Assembly: GCF_014207255.1 (NCBI RefSeq) | Contig: NZ_JACHCZ010000006.1 | Location: forward strand, 124,001 to 188,000 | Length of the DNA stretch: 64,000 bases | From: Pseudomonas sp. JAI120 | Lineage (GTDB): Bacteria; Pseudomonadota; Gammaproteobacteria; Pseudomonadales; Pseudomonadaceae | Direction of reading: 5' to 3' | In this document: in pieces, positions 2,066-61,172 of the stretch | Position numbering within the stretch: the first letter of the stretch is position 1 | Layout: the number at the start of each line of letters is the position of its first letter | Made by a program: the position numbers and the translations under genes | Notes under the pieces: generated by a model | What the model was told of the DNA's origin: nothing | Database searches by the model: none | The model's input: only the letters and a program-made list of their open reading frames with translations

Positions 2066-2844
2066 GCTTCGACCTTCATCTGAACGGCCTGCGGGCGTTG
2101 GTCACCGGCGGTACGCTGGGGCTTGGCGCTGCTGTGGTGGAAACCCTTGCGGAGGCCGGCGCTCGGGTGACGGCATCTGCCCGCAGCGTGCCCACGGAGC
2201 CGGTGACGGGCGTCAACTACTTGGCTGCCGATCTGTCGACGGCGGAAGGTGCGACTCACCTTGCTCAGACAGTCCTGCGGGACTGGGGCGGCGTCGATAT
2301 TCTGATCAATGTGCTTGGTGGTTCGAAGACGCCCGGTGGCGGTTTCGCTGCGATCAGTGATGAGCACTGGTTCGCCGAGCTGAACCTAAACTTGATGCCT
2401 GCCGTACGCCTGGATCGTGCGTTGCTGCCGGCGATGCTGGCTCAGGGCTCCGGCGTCATCATCCACGTCAGCTCCATCCAACGTATATTGCCTCTGCCCG
2501 AGTCCACCACCGCCTACGCCGCAGCCAAAGGGGCGCTCACGACCTACAGCAAGTCGCTGGCGAGAGAGGTGACTCCGAAGGGAGTTCGCGTCCTGAGCGT
2601 TGCGCCGGGCTGGATCGAGACCGAGGCTTCCGTAGCGTTTGCGCAGCGGATGGCTGCAGAGGCCGGGACGGATTACGATGGCGGCAAGAAAATTATCATG
2701 GATTGGTTGGGAGGAATTCCAGTTGGCCGACCGGCTACACCACAAGAGGTGGCCGATTTGATCGCTTTCCTCGCATCCCCGCGGTCTGCTTCGATCGCAG
2801 GGGCCGAGTATCGAATCGACGGCGGCACTGTTCCTACCCTGTAG
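2062..2844 (+). CDS. SDR-family oxidoreductase
   Basis: A 260-residue classical short-chain dehydrogenase/reductase. The N-terminal nucleotide-binding motif is TGGTLGLG (about residues 16-23), the central motif reads INVLGG in place of the usual NNAG, the catalytic serine is in HVSSIQ and the YxxxK pair is in TAYAAAKGAL (about residues 152-161). The C-terminus ends with AGAEYRIDGGTVPTL, typical of the family. It overlaps the SnoaL-like gene by 4 bp. SDR plus SnoaL-like plus LysR is a common small catabolic or detoxification module; the substrate is unknown. Confidence 0.9.
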   Translation: MSFDLHLNGLRALVTGGTLGLGAAVVETLAEAGARVTASARSVPTEPVTGVNYLAADLSTAEGATHLAQTVLRDWGGVDILINVLGGSKTPGGGFAAISDEHWFAELNLNLMPAVRLDRALLPAMLAQGSGVIIHVSSIQRILPLPESTTAYAAAKGALTTYSKSLAREVTPKGVRVLSVAPGWIETEASVAFAQRMAAEAGTDYDGGKKIIMDWLGGIPVGRPATPQEVADLIAFLASPRSASIAGAEYRIDGGTVPTL

Positions 2845-15860: not shown

Positions 15861-16820
15861 TCAAACTCCATCGTTCATGCATCGTGAGTCATCCATAACC
15901 ATCTGCTTCCGTTGCTGCTTCAGGTTGAGCACAAACTCCGAAGCGCTTCGGGCCTGACCACTGGCGCGAAAGATCGCGCGTTTGTCAGCCTTTAGCAGGC
16001 CGAGCCAGGAGTCGATGTAGCCCTCGTGCCGCAGCTCCCCCTGTATACCGGCGTAGGCACATAAAAAAGCAGCGCCCATCTCGGCGATCAATTCCTCAAA
16101 CGCGTAGCCTGGCGAGCCGAACGGACAGGCTGACCTCACGCCTTCGCGCTGCAACCGAGTGTGATGCCCGGTCCAGTGCGTCAGCTCATGAAGTGCAGTG
16201 GCGTAGTACCCGCCTTCATCGTGAAATTGTGCTTTTGTCGGCAGTTGGATGAGATCCCTGATCGGGTGGTAAAAGGCTTCGTCAGCAGGCCGATGAACGA
16301 TGCGTGCACCTGAACTTAACAGCAGATCTTCCGCGGCGCTGTTGGGCTGGAAGGGATCACTCTGTTCCGTCTCGAGCAAGGTGTCATTGAGCATTTCGAG
16401 CCCCTCCGTTTGCTCGATGTTGAACAGAAAATGCGTCCTGAGAATGCCGAAGTGAGCGATCTTAGGTTGACCGTTTTCATCGAGTACGGGTTGGCCTGAC
16501 TCGGTTTGTTCCTCGCGCTCCATCGGCTTGTAGAGCACCGCCAGAGTGCTGTGCTCACCCTTACGAATGTGCCCGCCAGCTTTTTTGGCTTGATTGAAAG
16601 TCAGCCAACGATCTTGAGTGAACCCCTGCAACCTGGCCTCGGCCCAGAGCAGCGGTAAATTGATGCCCGAATACGGACGTCGCGTGATGGCGTTGACGGG
16701 GTAGGGTTGATGACCGGTACAAGCGGAGTCAATTGAGGACCAGGGTTTAATCCAGGGTGCAACGCCTTGGTCTAACGCAGTAACGAGCTTGTCTGTCACG
16801 TCTTGGTAGATATCGCGCAT
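15861..16820 (-). CDS. ArdC-like anti-restriction protein (ssDNA-binding domain plus zincin)
   Basis: A 319-residue protein. Residues about 1-140 are the ArdC N-terminal single-strand DNA-binding domain (DUF1738: YQDVTDKLVTALDQGVAPWI, NAITRRPYSGINLPLLW). Residues 200-290 are a zincin metallopeptidase-like domain with HELTHW (211-216) and a downstream acidic helix FEELIAEMGAAFLCAY that supplies the third ligand. Such proteins protect incoming conjugated DNA from host restriction and are common next to TraI. It starts at ATG 16820 preceded by GAGGAA, and its leader carries a hairpin (16863-16878) of the type shared with three other genes in this element. A strong terminator follows. Confidence 0.88.
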   Translation of the reverse strand: MRDIYQDVTDKLVTALDQGVAPWIKPWSSIDSACTGHQPYPVNAITRRPYSGINLPLLWAEARLQGFTQDRWLTFNQAKKAGGHIRKGEHSTLAVLYKPMEREEQTESGQPVLDENGQPKIAHFGILRTHFLFNIEQTEGLEMLNDTLLETEQSDPFQPNSAAEDLLLSSGARIVHRPADEAFYHPIRDLIQLPTKAQFHDEGGYYATALHELTHWTGHHTRLQREGVRSACPFGSPGYAFEELIAEMGAAFLCAYAGIQGELRHEGYIDSWLGLLKADKRAIFRASGQARSASEFVLNLKQQRKQMVMDDSRCMNDGV

Positions 16821-16952: not shown

Positions 16953-17282
16953 TTAGCGCTGGTGTTCTCCTGCAAGCGCTATCAGCAATGCGCCAGGCTG
17001 ATCCGGTTCTTGGAGTAAGCTCAGACTCAATTGCAGCAACGGGTCGTGGCCTAATTGATCGGCTGGTTCAATATGCATTACCTCGAACAGCACGTAGGGT
17101 TTGTATGGATATGCCAGGTGGGCCTCGAAGGCTGCGCGCAATACGTGGCTCAACCGATCGACCTGCAGCTTCTCAGCGTAATCGGATTGATCGAGCAGTA
17201 CTGCGCGTTGCCACGCGCCAGGAGTGAACACGACGGGCAGCCGAAGGGTGTTTATTGTTTCCGGTGTAAGTGAGTCAGGCAT
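16953..17282 (-). CDS. Hypothetical ICE protein of 109 residues
   Basis: The protein starts MPDSLTPETINTLRLPVVFT and contains AYPYKPYVLFEVMHIEP. ATG 17282 has GGAG at the right distance. No transmembrane segment or known motif is visible; it is a soluble acidic protein. It lies upstream of the ArdC-like gene on the same strand with a 132-bp gap, and it has an unusually long and structured leader: a hairpin at 17321-17342 and the conserved RNA at 17410-17565. The shared leader design with ArdC-, RadC- and DUF3577-type genes suggests co-regulation with genes that protect or replicate the transferring DNA. I do not recognise the family. Confidence 0.7.
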   Translation of the reverse strand: MPDSLTPETINTLRLPVVFTPGAWQRAVLLDQSDYAEKLQVDRLSHVLRAAFEAHLAYPYKPYVLFEVMHIEPADQLGHDPLLQLSLSLLQEPDQPGALLIALAGEHQR

Positions 17283-17320
17283 GGAATGTCTCCGTTGAAA
17301 GCGCGAAGAAACCTGTCCCG

Positions 17321-17342
17321 TGCGGAGAAAGATTTCCCCGCA
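17321..17342 (-). promoter_or_regulatory. Leader hairpin of the 109-residue protein gene
   Basis: TGCGG (17321-17325) pairs with CCGCA (17338-17342). On the minus strand it is preceded by CAACCCAC and followed by GGGACAGG, 37 nt before the ATG at 17282: the same arrangement as before the ArdC-, RadC- and DUF3577-type genes. Confidence 0.55.
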
Positions 17343-17409
17343 GTGGGTTGAAGAAAATCAAGAGGGCTTACCTCACGAGCGAAGCTCGAAAGGCGCTCAT
17401 AAGAGCAGT

Positions 17410-17565
17410 AGGCGTTCATTACCGTAGAAACGGTCACCGTGCGAGCCACCGAACGCTAATCGCACTTGGGGGGGAACCATCATCGAAGTGACGTAGCCTT
17501 GAAGGTTCTGGCTACCTGGGAAAGTGCTGTCGATAACAGCGATCCGCACCTTGTATTTAGCCGGA
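17410..17565 (-). ncRNA. Conserved structured leader RNA, copy 1
   Basis: About 155 nt that closely resemble 60493-60648. Helices seen (plus coordinates): ACCGT 17421-17425 with ACGGT 17430-17434; GTGCGA 17439-17444 with TCGCAC 17460-17465; TCAT 17480-17483 with GTGA 17488-17491; GTAGCC 17493-17498 with GGCTAC 17510-17515; GCTGT 17526-17530 with ACAGC 17536-17540. Several pairs change in a compensatory way in the other copy. The second helix has a G-U pair in copy 2 only if read from the minus strand, which agrees with the downstream minus-strand gene at 17282. The 17283-17738 gap has no credible gene. A radC RNA motif has been described 5' of such genes; identity is untested. Confidence 0.65.
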
Positions 17566-17738
17566 CGATTTATCTGGGTCAATTGCTGTAGAGACGATGT
17601 TTCGCGGAGCTTGTCTTCTAGCTTCCAATGAGGATTTTTCGACCGGGGAAACTGATAAACGGTCAGGCATGGGCCGCTTTCGGTAGTAGGCTATTCCTCC
17701 AGGCTCAACCATGAAAACGCTCAGAAGAGGGCGAGACC

Positions 17739-58785: not shown

Positions 58786-59280
58786 TTAAAGCCAGCCGTA
58801 TTCGGCAAGGGAGAGCGGGCGACCTTCACCCACTATGAAGTGATCCAGTACGCACACGTCGATCAAGGCCAAGGCCTCTTTCAACCGTGCGGTCAAAACA
58901 CGGTCCGCCTGGCTGGGCTCCGTGCACCTTGAGGGATGGTTGTGAACAAAAATGACGGCTGCAGCGTTATGCGCGAGGGAGCGCTTAACGACTTGGCGGG
59001 GGTAAACGCTGGCGCCATCAATGCTGCCGTGAAAGAGGATTTCGAACGCCAGCACCCGGTGCTGGGCGTCAAAAAAAACCACACCAAAGACTTCATGTTC
59101 TTGTTGTGTAAGCTGCAGTTTTAGGTATGAGGTCACGGCGTCAGGTGACGTCAGTTTAGGACCACGGTTGAACAACCGACGGTCTAGAATATGCAGCGCT
59201 TCGTCGATCAGCAGGTTTTCTTGGACAATGCGATCAGCCTCGAAATCCGAGGTCTCAATCAGTGTGAGTTGGGGGCTCAT
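58786..59280 (-). CDS. RadC-like JAB-domain protein
   Basis: A 164-residue protein of the RadC/JAMM family: [40 protein letters not shown] and the metal-binding [16 protein letters not shown] (His113, His115, Asp126). Start ATG 59280 has GGAGGT upstream. RadC-like proteins are common on ICEs and phages; a role in recombination or anti-defence is assumed but not proven. The leader has a hairpin at 59322-59339. Confidence 0.88.
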
Positions 59281-59321
59281 GGCGCTACCTCCGAAGGGAA
59301 TAATCAGGGGGTACACGCCCA

Positions 59322-59339
59322 TGGGGAGTGGTATCCCCA
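59322..59339 (-). promoter_or_regulatory. Leader hairpin of the RadC-like gene
   Basis: TGGGGA (59322-59327) and TCCCCA (59334-59339) pair around a 6-nt loop. On the minus strand it is preceded by CACCCACC and followed by TGGGCGTG, about 40 nt before the ATG; same design as before the ArdC-like, DUF3577 and 109-residue protein genes. Confidence 0.6.
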
Positions 59340-59381
59340 GGGTGGGTGTGGAGTTGCAGGCGTTTGCAGGTGATGTAGGGT

Positions 59382-59639
59382 TTACAGCCGAGTGTATCGG
59401 TGACGTTGACCGTGTAGAGGTGAACCACAACTGTCGCAAGGCAACGTAGAAAAGGCTCTTATTCCCCAGCCGGTTTCGGGGTCGAAGTCGGCACTGATGG
59501 GCATTAAGCGAACCAGCCCACGATGTATCGCGGCGATGCGTTGTGCGATCTCATTCGGCGAGTGATACAGCGATAACGTGCTGTAGTCCTCGTAAGCCGC
59601 ACCGAACAGGCAGTCGTCGCAAAGCCAGAAGGATTCCAT
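59382..59639 (-). CDS. Hypothetical cysteine-rich ICE protein, 85 residues
   Basis: Starts [20 protein letters not shown] and ends with [20 protein letters not shown]. Two CxxC pairs (residues 7-10 and about 69-72) suggest a small zinc-binding protein. GGAG precedes ATG 59639. It lies between the DUF3577 and RadC-like genes on the same strand. No family recognised. Confidence 0.7.
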
Positions 59640-59710: not shown

Positions 59711-60292
59711 TCAGGCGGACTGAACAGCACGTGTGGCGACACGGCGGGCCGTGCGGGGAGTGGTGGCAGATACAGGTTTAGTCCTGAGCTCTGTTGATTT
59801 ACCGATATTCTCAGCTTCGACATCAGCCGACGCTGGGGATGACTCACTGTTTGGCGCTTGCTCAGCAGATGCTGTTCCTTCCTGCCTGGCGGGCGCTTTG
59901 TATTCGAACTTGCCATTGACCTTGATCCAGTCGATGAACAGCAAACGACCTTTCAGGCTGGCGCCAGGTTGGCCTTGTTTATCGCCTTTCTCATAGAGAA
60001 ATGGGTCGATCCACAGGTCACCAATACGGAACGACAGCAAGACCTTTTTCTCGGCTTTGACGGCGTCCATATAGAGGCGAATCAAGCGGTCAGCTTCGCC
60101 ACCAGCGACTTTGCAATCAAAGCGGGTGTACTCCACTGCATCGGAGGCACCATGCAAGGCTGCGATATCGCAGGCCATGAATGGCTGACCGCGGCGGACC
60201 TGTACTTCACGAACACGGTTGAGGTAGCCGATACCGGCGGTGTGCAGGTTGAAGTAAGAGGTCGCTTCTTGGGATTGGTTGGCGTAGGCCAT
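59711..60292 (-). CDS. STY4534-type ICE replication protein (DUF3577)
   Basis: A 193-residue protein: QEATSYFNLHTAGIGYLNRV, REVQVRRGQPFMACDIAALH and AEKKVLLSFRIGDLWIDPFL are conserved DUF3577 segments (about 1-125), followed by a low-complexity tail of alanine, serine and glutamate. The first domain resembles a single-strand DNA-binding OB-type fold and the family is annotated as an ICE replication protein. It has the longest leader in the window: a 10-bp hairpin (60333-60362) and conserved RNA copy 2 (60493-60648). Confidence 0.88.
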   Translation of the reverse strand: MAYANQSQEATSYFNLHTAGIGYLNRVREVQVRRGQPFMACDIAALHGASDAVEYTRFDCKVAGGEADRLIRLYMDAVKAEKKVLLSFRIGDLWIDPFLYEKGDKQGQPGASLKGRLLFIDWIKVNGKFEYKAPARQEGTASAEQAPNSESSPASADVEAENIGKSTELRTKPVSATTPRTARRVATRAVQSA

Positions 60293-60332
60293 GGTGGTTC
60301 TCCTGTTTCAAGGGAAAACGGCGACGCACAGC

Positions 60333-60362
60333 CCCTGACGGGAAAGTGAGCCCCCGTCAGGG
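60333..60362 (-). promoter_or_regulatory. Leader hairpin of the DUF3577 gene
   Basis: CCCTGACGGG (60333-60342) and CCCGTCAGGG (60353-60362) are perfect 10-bp arms with a 10-nt loop, preceded on the minus strand by TTACCCAC and followed by GCTGTGCG; the ATG is about 41 nt downstream. Fourth member of the leader hairpin set. Confidence 0.65.
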
Positions 60363-60492
60363 TGGGTAAGATGAAGTCGAGCGATGAACGACTCGCCACC
60401 GGCAAGCCGATGACCATCAGAATGAAGCTTCTGGGTGAGTAGCTGTGCAGCAGAGGAGAGTCTGCAGTGGTAACCCGCAGGCATGGAGTAGT

Positions 60493-60648
60493 CGGCATTC
60501 ATCACCGCTTAAGCGGCAACCGCGCGAGCTTCCGAACGCTGATCGCACTTGGGTAAACCACCACGAACGTGGCGTAGCCTTGAAGGTTTTGGCTACCTGG
60601 GCTGGGCTGTCAACGACAGCGAACCACGCCCTTTGTATAAGCCTGTCA
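60493..60648 (-). ncRNA. Conserved structured leader RNA, copy 2
   Basis: Similar to 17410-17565. Helices (plus coordinates): CCGC 60505-60508 with GCGG 60513-60516; GCGCGA 60522-60527 with TCGCAC 60543-60548; CCAC 60561-60564 with GTGG 60569-60572; GTAGCC 60574-60579 with GGCTAC 60591-60596; GCTGTC 60606-60611 with GACAGC 60615-60620. Compared with copy 1, T-A pairs become C-G in helices 1 and 3 while loops vary. It lies 200 bp upstream of the DUF3577 start on the same strand. Open frames across it share no protein sequence with those of copy 1 in the same register, so it is not coding. Confidence 0.65.
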
Positions 60649-60814
60649 CCGGGGAGCGTCAAGACGCTACAACCCGATTTTTTAAGGCCGGAATACGGTG
60701 GTAGTCACTGGAATTAAGAAAATGAAAAAAAGAAGAGTGGGCCTGGTGGTGTGCCAGGCGAGGAATAGAAAAAACCACCTTTGACGGTCTTACGCAGTCG
60801 ACAAGCTCCTCGCA

Positions 60815-61094
60815 AAACTTGGTTGAACTGCGCAATGATTCGCCAACCGACCCTTGTCGTGGCCTGGGTCGGAAGCTACTGGCACGCATCCGCGCACAAA
60901 GGGTGCCCAGTGTTTCCCCGGCGGGCTCCGGGGCTGAATACGATCGCCGAAGCGGATGACCGCTGTTGTCTGGCAGAGGCAACAGTGGTCATCCGCCACC
61001 ACGATCAGGTCGAGCACAAAGCGGGAATGAAATTCCGCAGAAGAGAAGGCTCCGAACTCAGGGAGTCCGACCGAACTACCCGGAGCGAATCGGT
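60815..61094. other. Hairpin-rich non-coding segment with a 17-bp stem
   Basis: The gap 60661-61172 has no gene but contains a cluster of inverted repeats: CCCCGG/CCGGGG (60916-60933), a 17-bp stem with one mismatch (60952-60968 with 60980-60996, 11-nt loop), GCGGGAAT/ATTCCGC (61021-61038) and GACCGA/TCGGTC (61068-61094). There is no T run after the long stem. It lies between a regulator gene and the replication protein gene. Candidates are an origin of transfer or replication of the element, or a structured regulatory RNA. Confidence 0.5.
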
Positions 61095-61172
61095 CTTGGG
61101 TCGCCGTAAGCGATGATCCTGAGGCACTACAGCAGAGCGGGTGTGACGACGTCAAGCCAATGGGCGAAGAGA

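Follow-up and report, generated by a model that had tools for sequence, protein, structure and literature searches.

Tandem pseudoknots of the radC RNA above predicted buried start sites of conjugative-element genes: a possible platform for ribosome standby

The window analysed here, a 64,000-nucleotide stretch of Pseudomonas sp. JAI120 DNA, carries two copies of the radC RNA (Rfam RF01754; Weinberg 2010) as leaders of genes of a conjugative element of the PFGI-1 class (relaxase model TIGR03760). Computation gives the family, the structure, the folding strand and the position of these RNAs, a Shine-Dalgarno sequence predicted to be buried below them, and the replacement of radC at its place by two other leaders, STAXI RNA and an RNA that we call K-leader. 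By analogy with toxin mRNAs, the reading that we put first, while rating it somewhat short of an even chance, is that ribosomes stand by on radC RNA, a pseudoknotted platform at the mRNA 5' end, before they reach a sequestered start site below it.

If this were true, radC, STAXI and K-leader would gain one testable function as platforms above buried start sites, and two orphan Rfam families together with a new one would form one functional class. ICE gene control would gain a translational layer, and standby translation, now a matter of a few toxin mRNAs, would also cover a widespread regulon of mobile elements. Our literature search found no function in print for radC or STAXI RNA and no paper under "radC RNA" or "radC motif"; a limited search for ICE with pseudoknot, leader RNA or structured RNA returned, in the portions of the literature covered, none on ICE leaders.

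Table 1 Features of the window and of the loci compared with it (window positions unless a locus is named)
Feature	Positions	Strand	Basis or remark
Promoter-like hexamers, copy 1	17554-17582	-	Sequence: TTGACC 17582-17577, 17 nt, TAAATA 17559-17554; start expected ~17547
radC RNA copy 1 (P1, P2, PK1, P3, P3b, PK2, P4)	17412-17557	-	Rfam RF01754, 81.2 bits, E 1.5e-13
Leader hairpin, copy 1	17321-17342	-	RNA fold of 17262-17411, z -3.66
Helix UCUUCG/CGGAGA, predicted to bury the Shine-Dalgarno of the next gene, copy 1	17289-17309	-	Same RNA fold of 17262-17411
First gene 3' of copy 1, 109 aa	16953-17282	-	No match to Pfam or NCBIfam families at E 0.001
Anti-restriction protein ArdC, second gene 3' of copy 1	15861-16820	-	Pfam ArdcN and MPTase-PolyVal
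Promoter-like hexamers, copy 2	60634-60662	-	Sequence: TTGACG 60662-60657, 17 nt, TATACA 60639-60634; start expected ~60627
radC RNA copy 2	60495-60637	-	Rfam RF01754, 92.2 bits, E 5e-16
Leader hairpin, copy 2, 12-bp stem	60333-60362	-	RNA fold of 60272-60494, z -3.68
Helix GUUUUCC/GGAGAAC, predicted to bury the Shine-Dalgarno of STY4534, copy 2	60297-60319	-	RNA fold of 60272-60494
ICE replication protein of the STY4534 family (DUF3577), first gene 3' of copy 2	59711-60292	-	Pfam PF12101, NCBIfam NF040584
RadC-family JAB protein, downstream of copy 2	58786-59439	-	Pfam PF04002
STAXI RNA directly above STY4534	L314:872-1023, L315:859-1009, L320:859-1009, L322:881-1025, L323:857-1007		Enterobacterales plasmids
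Two further radC-like RNAs, ICEclc-like island	L143:1781-1918 and 2679-2814	+	Own model R1

Two radC RNAs and their structure

A search of the window with Rfam returned two RF01754 matches, both above the gathering cut-off of 40 bits and both on the minus strand at the places where the initial annotation had located a repeated structured RNA. Our own model, R1, scores copy 1 at 97.5 bits (17558-17412) and copy 2 at 113.4 bits. The annotation had proposed that these may be radC members or else a new class; the former is borne out and the latter is wrong for both copies. The genes of Table 1, beside which a MobH relaxase gene also lies downstream of copy 1, are on the same strand as the RNAs, and the distance from RNA end to start codon is 129 nt for copy 1 and 202 nt for copy 2. 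The view that the two copies are leaders of minus-strand ICE genes (the ArdC region; STY4534 and RadC), and that a leader hairpin comes after each of them, holds. The claim that the RNA ties these genes to one signal finds no support here: no ligand or signal was found, and the upstream sequences vary between copies while the RNA stays.

The source genome has five radC copies above the cut-off. At least one radC RNA occurs in 133 of 398 genomes of the host's family, and 2 of the 369 genomes drawn from the class carry it, the source genome included; single radC copies used as queries against plasmids and phages returned 4, 1 and 4 records. A weak third radC-like match in the window (61049-61171, minus strand; 16.4 bits, E 0.0069 within the window) is marginal and is perhaps a degenerate copy.

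Judged from the comparison of related sequences, radC RNA is a tandem double pseudoknot of eight helices. Both halves follow one plan, that is, a stem, a pseudoknot strand in the loop, a hairpin and the pseudoknot partner: the first pseudoknot would comprise stem P2, PK1 and hairpin P3, and the second stem P3b, PK2 and hairpin P4. Our structure agrees with RF01754 as modelled in family, strand and place above ICE genes, and adds to it three covarying helices: PK1, between the P2 loop and a stretch 3' of P3; P3b, of the GUUCGC/GCGAAC type; and PK2, between GCAUCC in the P3b loop and the 3'-terminal GGAUGC. These pseudoknots may already have been drawn in Weinberg's additional files or in the S3 motif figure in PLoS Genet. 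In the window, PK1 reads GAACC/GGUUC (copy 1) and AAACC/GGUUU (copy 2), and PK2 pairs GCGUUC with GAACGC or GAAUGC. The helices described in the initial annotation can be placed on this structure: the invariant helix GTAGCC/GGCTAC is confirmed and corresponds to P2, the two helices with T-A against C-G between copies are P3, at alignment columns 74/93, and P4 at its inner end, columns 155/163, the wobble present on the minus strand only belongs to the inner pair of P1, which is U-G in copy 1 and C-G in copy 2, and the fifth helix is probably P3b.

The relatives derive from listed radC matches only: stretches were fetched for 141 of the 158 (17 were left out), which gave 127 unique cores and, below 88% identity, 51 rows. 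In these 51 rows the eight-helix structure has standard pairs in 95.0% of cells, compared with 81.3% when shuffled and 23–38% when slid, which is beyond chance. Changes on both sides affect 34 of the 47 pairs and 333 cells (shuffled, 23.9 and 88.7). For the added helices, the paired cells amount to 91.3% (PK1), 94.8% (P3b) and 97.8% (PK2), with four pairs changed on both sides in each; p-values are overstated, as the alignment rows are related. The outer P4 pairs of the Rfam model (117-119/147-149) use the same 3' strand as PK2 and pair less often, being standard in about 81%, 92% and 71% of the 127 rows, while the PK2 value refers to filled cells in the 51 rows.

Covariation was also scored against a tree-based null with a script of our own, modelled on R-scape, for which the 127 copies were aligned without regard to structure. 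Ten of the 12 top covarying pairs fall in the final helices (P1, P3b, P2, P4, P3, PK1), and four of the ten lie in P3b and PK1, beyond the Rfam model. A single pair of P1 and a single pair of P3b stand above every null value, and the others have expected false counts of at least 0.3, so that we read the list as a ranking and not as proof.

Sense strand, predicted transcription start and the buried Shine-Dalgarno

In the radC helices, read on the sense strand, G-U cells outnumber A-C cells by 181 to 34, or by 139 to 34 without one near-constant G-U pair (42 of the 181), whereas slid controls are balanced in sum (1453 to 1472; range 137:267 to 306:188). Thus, it is the sense strand that folds. 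Copies lie on one strand in all 42 multi-copy clusters (115 copies with neighbours at most 80 kb apart, among the 158 listed matches).

From the promoter-like hexamers at both copies we infer a start of transcription at P1. Transcription would begin at the first nucleotides of this helix, and each copy would form the 5' end of an mRNA leader. A consensus promoter scan of both window leaders found no promoter at either copy. Among the 127 copies, a -10-like AnnnT occupies RNA positions 1/5 in 84 (background 3.2%), and TTGAC with at most one mismatch and the right spacing lies upstream in 30 (background 4.5%). A CCGATT-like motif, present at -42 to -24 in 51 copies (background 3.1%), may serve as the site of an activator, BisDC for example. 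Since the TTGAC and CCGATT-like types are nearly exclusive, with 1 of 127 copies having both, two upstream sequence types feed the same RNA.

Downstream of the RNA, both window leaders fold better than shuffles, with the Shine-Dalgarno predicted in a helix. The median predicted probability that the Shine-Dalgarno is unpaired is 0.035 for 102 radC-linked genes and 0.26 for 512 control ORFs, whose start codons are less certain. Anti-Shine-Dalgarno helices scoring at least 18 were found in 44% of 95 radC-linked genes (11% shuffled) and in 45% of 71 leaders of a second STY4534 set, most of them without radC (5% shuffled), whereas the control ORFs, with 16% of 250, are hardly above their shuffles (12%). 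In 74 STY4534 leaders of the second set the Shine-Dalgarno was not predicted to be less open than in controls (0.25 vs 0.26, p 0.16). First-gene calls after radC include spurious GC-rich ORFs, the first ORF being antisense in 34 of 141.

The spacing between radC RNA and start codon has a median of 84.5 nt and a range of 28–202 nt; the linker of copy 2, at 202 nt and well structured, departs from the usual 70–92 nt. The first 25 nt after radC are unpaired at 0.61, compared with 0.38 for the remainder of the linker (shuffled, 0.53 and 0.49; n = 83).

STAXI and K-leader at the same place

STAXI RNA (RF01728), likewise described in 2010, is presented as a pseudoknot in two or three repeats, close to genes for ssb, topoisomerase, antirestriction and integrase (PMC2864571). 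We predicted beforehand that STAXI would stand at radC's place in Enterobacterales, and then found it in 5 of 11 plasmid STY4534 loci, 136–144 nt above the gene in Salmonella pSGI4, Pantoea (twice), Erwinia and Citrobacter, which amounts to five of the seven Enterobacterales loci. radC RNA itself lies above plasmid STY4534 in Stutzerimonas and Enterobacter ludwigii; the latter copy (L319:915-1064) is outside the Pseudomonadaceae. The Klebsiella, Shewanella, Vibrio and Burkholderia plasmid loci have no radC, STAXI or K-leader above STY4534. Leaders of Vibrio and Burkholderia glumae (L316 and L317, above DUF3577 genes) still have the hairpin and the anti-Shine-Dalgarno helix, and platforms besides these three may exist. 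At all 11 plasmid loci the Shine-Dalgarno lies in a helix in minimum-energy folds judged by eye.

Six of the ten records searched with STAXI hold two to three matches each, on one strand per record, with one of these matches under the cut-off. About 700 nt after a STAXI copy, two records have an integrase gene. The STAXI model gave no match at its gathering cut-off in the window, where the two radC matches stood alone, and none in the 369 class genomes, in which the controls were equally silent. STAXI resembles radC in being a repeated pseudoknot on one strand above STY4534, with a similar hairpin and anti-Shine-Dalgarno helix below, but it is a separate Rfam family, listed for Enterobacteriales.

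K-leader is an RNA family without an Rfam model and new here. Its plan consists of a P1 hairpin, a P2 stem with the pseudoknot strand in its loop, a hairpin P3 and the pseudoknot partner; the strand reads GGAUCG, GGACCG, GGGCUG, GGAUUG and the like, and the partner CGAUCC, CGGUCC, CAGCCC, CAAUCC and the like. Among named STY4534 loci (the best 80 of 417), three have radC and 69 pass the K-leader detector; K-leader is over-represented in this sample because the loci are ranked by likeness to a query that has a K-leader in its own first row. At a detector score of 52, 85 of 96 leaders pass and so do 23 of 276 shuffles. At 55 or above the numbers are 80 of 92 leaders (including three radC and up to two coding false matches) and 3 of 276 shuffles, and in 68 of these 80 leaders the last K-leader strand lies 95–114 nt above the start codon. 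K-leader was seen about 100 nt above STY4534 at L174-L229 and others, often with several copies per element on one strand.

After two coding false matches and three radC leaders were dropped, the 80 K-leader rows became 50, of which 32 well-aligned rows form alignment A4 and 18 were removed by hand. In these 32 chosen rows 96.1% of cells are paired, compared with 85.3% when shuffled, and 112 cells are changed on both sides, compared with 34.9; the pseudoknot is at 100% by construction, because the detector required it. Further pair types in A4 were not above shuffles (29 vs 27.8, 165 of 500). A model without the pseudoknot finds K-leader in 15 of 21 searched genomes, and none in the radC-bearing G000, G158 and G658 nor in G622, G675 and G710. 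In 33 rows of that search, some of them overlapping and two of them antisense false matches, 111 of the 128 filled pseudoknot cells are paired (70 cells are gapped), compared with 33–80 of 128 when slid.

The 12 multi-copy K-leader clusters (45 of 59 listed matches) each occupy one strand; the 14 weaker matches, which this count leaves aside, include one on the opposite strand within 80 kb of a cluster (G643:C2:3555592, E 0.0018). Forty copies were examined for the genes that follow, with 31 gene calls, and for 15 of the 31 a homologue is also the first or second gene behind a radC RNA: STY4534 (six), RadC (two), DUF932 (two), DUF3275, an integrase and three nameless genes. In the class draw, STY4534 is present in 20 of the 369 genomes and K-leader in 19, 12 of them among those 20, an overlap that is partly built in because the model derives from STY4534 leaders. 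Rfam reached no cut-off at 20 K-leader loci, and at 19 STY4534 loci it gave three matches up to E 1, all below cut-off and from unrelated families. The K-leader model had no match in the window at E 0.05, and a DNA similarity search of E. coli genomes with one K-leader stretch gave no match. The first 25 nt after K-leader are no more open than in shuffles (0.46 vs 0.50, n = 65). At positions 4 and 5 past the 3' pseudoknot strand T is frequent in both RNAs (radC 0.49/0.50, K-leader 0.52/0.80). radC, STAXI and K-leader are alike in plan, place and genes; homology is not claimed.

Possible roles of the leaders, and ICEclc as a test case

The feature shared by these leaders, a buried Shine-Dalgarno below a pseudoknot, points to translation, and the architecture and interchange of the leaders point to its initiation. 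We favour a standby platform because the tisB and timP mRNAs need a pseudoknot for translation. tisB mRNA is reported to need a pseudoknot at its 5' end together with unpaired sequence some 100 nt upstream of its sequestered ribosome binding site, for S1 and the 30S subunit (PMC7708055), and timP mRNA is reported likewise to need its pseudoknot (PMC11228461). In radC leaders, the 30S subunit with protein S1 would dock at the pseudoknots and linker, and would then open the buried start site, usually 70–110 nt downstream. On read-through transcripts the ICE establishment and replication genes would stay silent, and their translation would require a transcript that begins at the RNA.

The likeness to tisB lies in a pseudoknot, supported by covariation, near the 5' end of radC mRNA predicted from the hexamers, and in the predicted sequestered binding site below it, at the median spacing given above. 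For the single-stranded stretch of tisB the picture is mixed: the first 25 nt of radC-linked leaders are more open than the rest, those of K-leaders are not above shuffles, and copy 2 of the window is structured. Unlike radC leaders, tisB and timP are toxin genes with antisense RNA, and tisB mRNA is processed; no family relation is claimed. That radC, STAXI and K-leader are interchangeable platforms for standby translation of one conjugative-element regulon across Gammaproteobacteria is a wider proposal, which we hold a little more tentatively than that for radC itself. The natural compensatory changes in the two conserved pseudoknots offer a simple test.

Next after the standby platform ranks a ligand- or protein-responsive translational switch, doubtful in our estimate, in which binding of a molecule from the ICE or the host to the pseudoknots would decide whether the Shine-Dalgarno helix is open or closed, one signal serving all copies. 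The complex conserved double pseudoknot, the predicted burial of the Shine-Dalgarno and the several copies per element, on one strand and at genes of one element, agree with such a switch; a specific ligand or protein could be meant, because the conserved loop letters of radC (CCCAG, CUUCAAGG) exceed the needs of a generic platform. The variable spacing to the start codon argues against it, as does the occupation of the same place by RNA families unlinked by Rfam or our own models. We consider improbable a transcription attenuator, by which the leader would stop transcription early unless a factor acts. It would agree with ICEclc, where reads above ORF81655 are reported as the highest of all and reporter output as like that of Pint (PMC9286271), with terminator-like hairpins in 10 of 127 radC copies and 14 of 65 K-leaders (about 2% in shuffles), and with at least five T within the first 8 nt after the RNA in 14 of 127 radC copies (background 1.4%). 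Most copies, however, are without such sites, and terminators in the window leaders are no commoner than in shuffles (none in leader 1 and one in leader 2, vs 0.5 and 0.8). To a 5' mRNA stabiliser or a trans-acting RNA, with no role in translation initiation, we give a slightly smaller chance still: P1 would enclose the predicted 5' end and the ORF81655 transcript is abundant (PMC2892462), but the RNA recurs above one set of genes and is linked to a buried Shine-Dalgarno, which speaks against it.

Our first idea, from the single strand and the ArdC and RadC neighbours, was a single-stranded-DNA promoter of the leading region (Frpo/ssi type) on the transferred strand. In Frpo, the transferred strand is the template. 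Frpo and ssi carry their -35/-10 inside a hairpin on the template strand, whereas in radC it is the sense strand that folds, with the promoter-like hexamers outside the helices, at the 5' edge and upstream of P1; the G-U/A-C test and the hexamers thus counter this idea. The precedent of Frpo, located as radC is upstream of anti-restriction and related conjugative-element genes (PMC11541004), and the one-strand arrangement of all 42 clusters of listed matches beside ArdC, RadC and STY4534 genes would agree with it. We read radC RNA as a leader and not as a promoter of this kind, to which we leave a very small probability.

For the standby platform, ICEclc offers a test case. Genome G158 has two ICEclc-like islands, and the one examined has 19-bp repeats at its ends, separated by 102,775 bp, with one of them at a tRNA-Gly. 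P. knackmussii B13 is described as having two identical ICEclc copies (PMC9286271), and G158 is probably this strain. By coordinates, radC RNA lies above ORF84835, ORF81655 (STY4534) and ORF58432 (RadC) in this island, and R1 adds a radC-like RNA above ORF88400 (63 bits) and another about 0.9 kb higher (53.9 bits), with no more matches at E <0.02 in the 120 kb that hold the island and its other bimodal promoters.

The transcripts of these four ORFs are listed as stationary-phase induced (Table 1 of PMC2892462). Bimodal promoters are reported at 88400, 81655 and 58432, that of 58432 being weak or perhaps not independent; 84835 shows induced reads, yet its cloned fragment was inactive, and post-transcriptional control is suggested for 81655 (PMC9286271). 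The ORF81655 transcript is given as among the most abundant, and 5'-RACE on it as without product, while a very weak primer-extension product ended about 250 bp above the start codon (PMC2892462); the start that we predict from the place of the radC RNA lies 224 nt above it.
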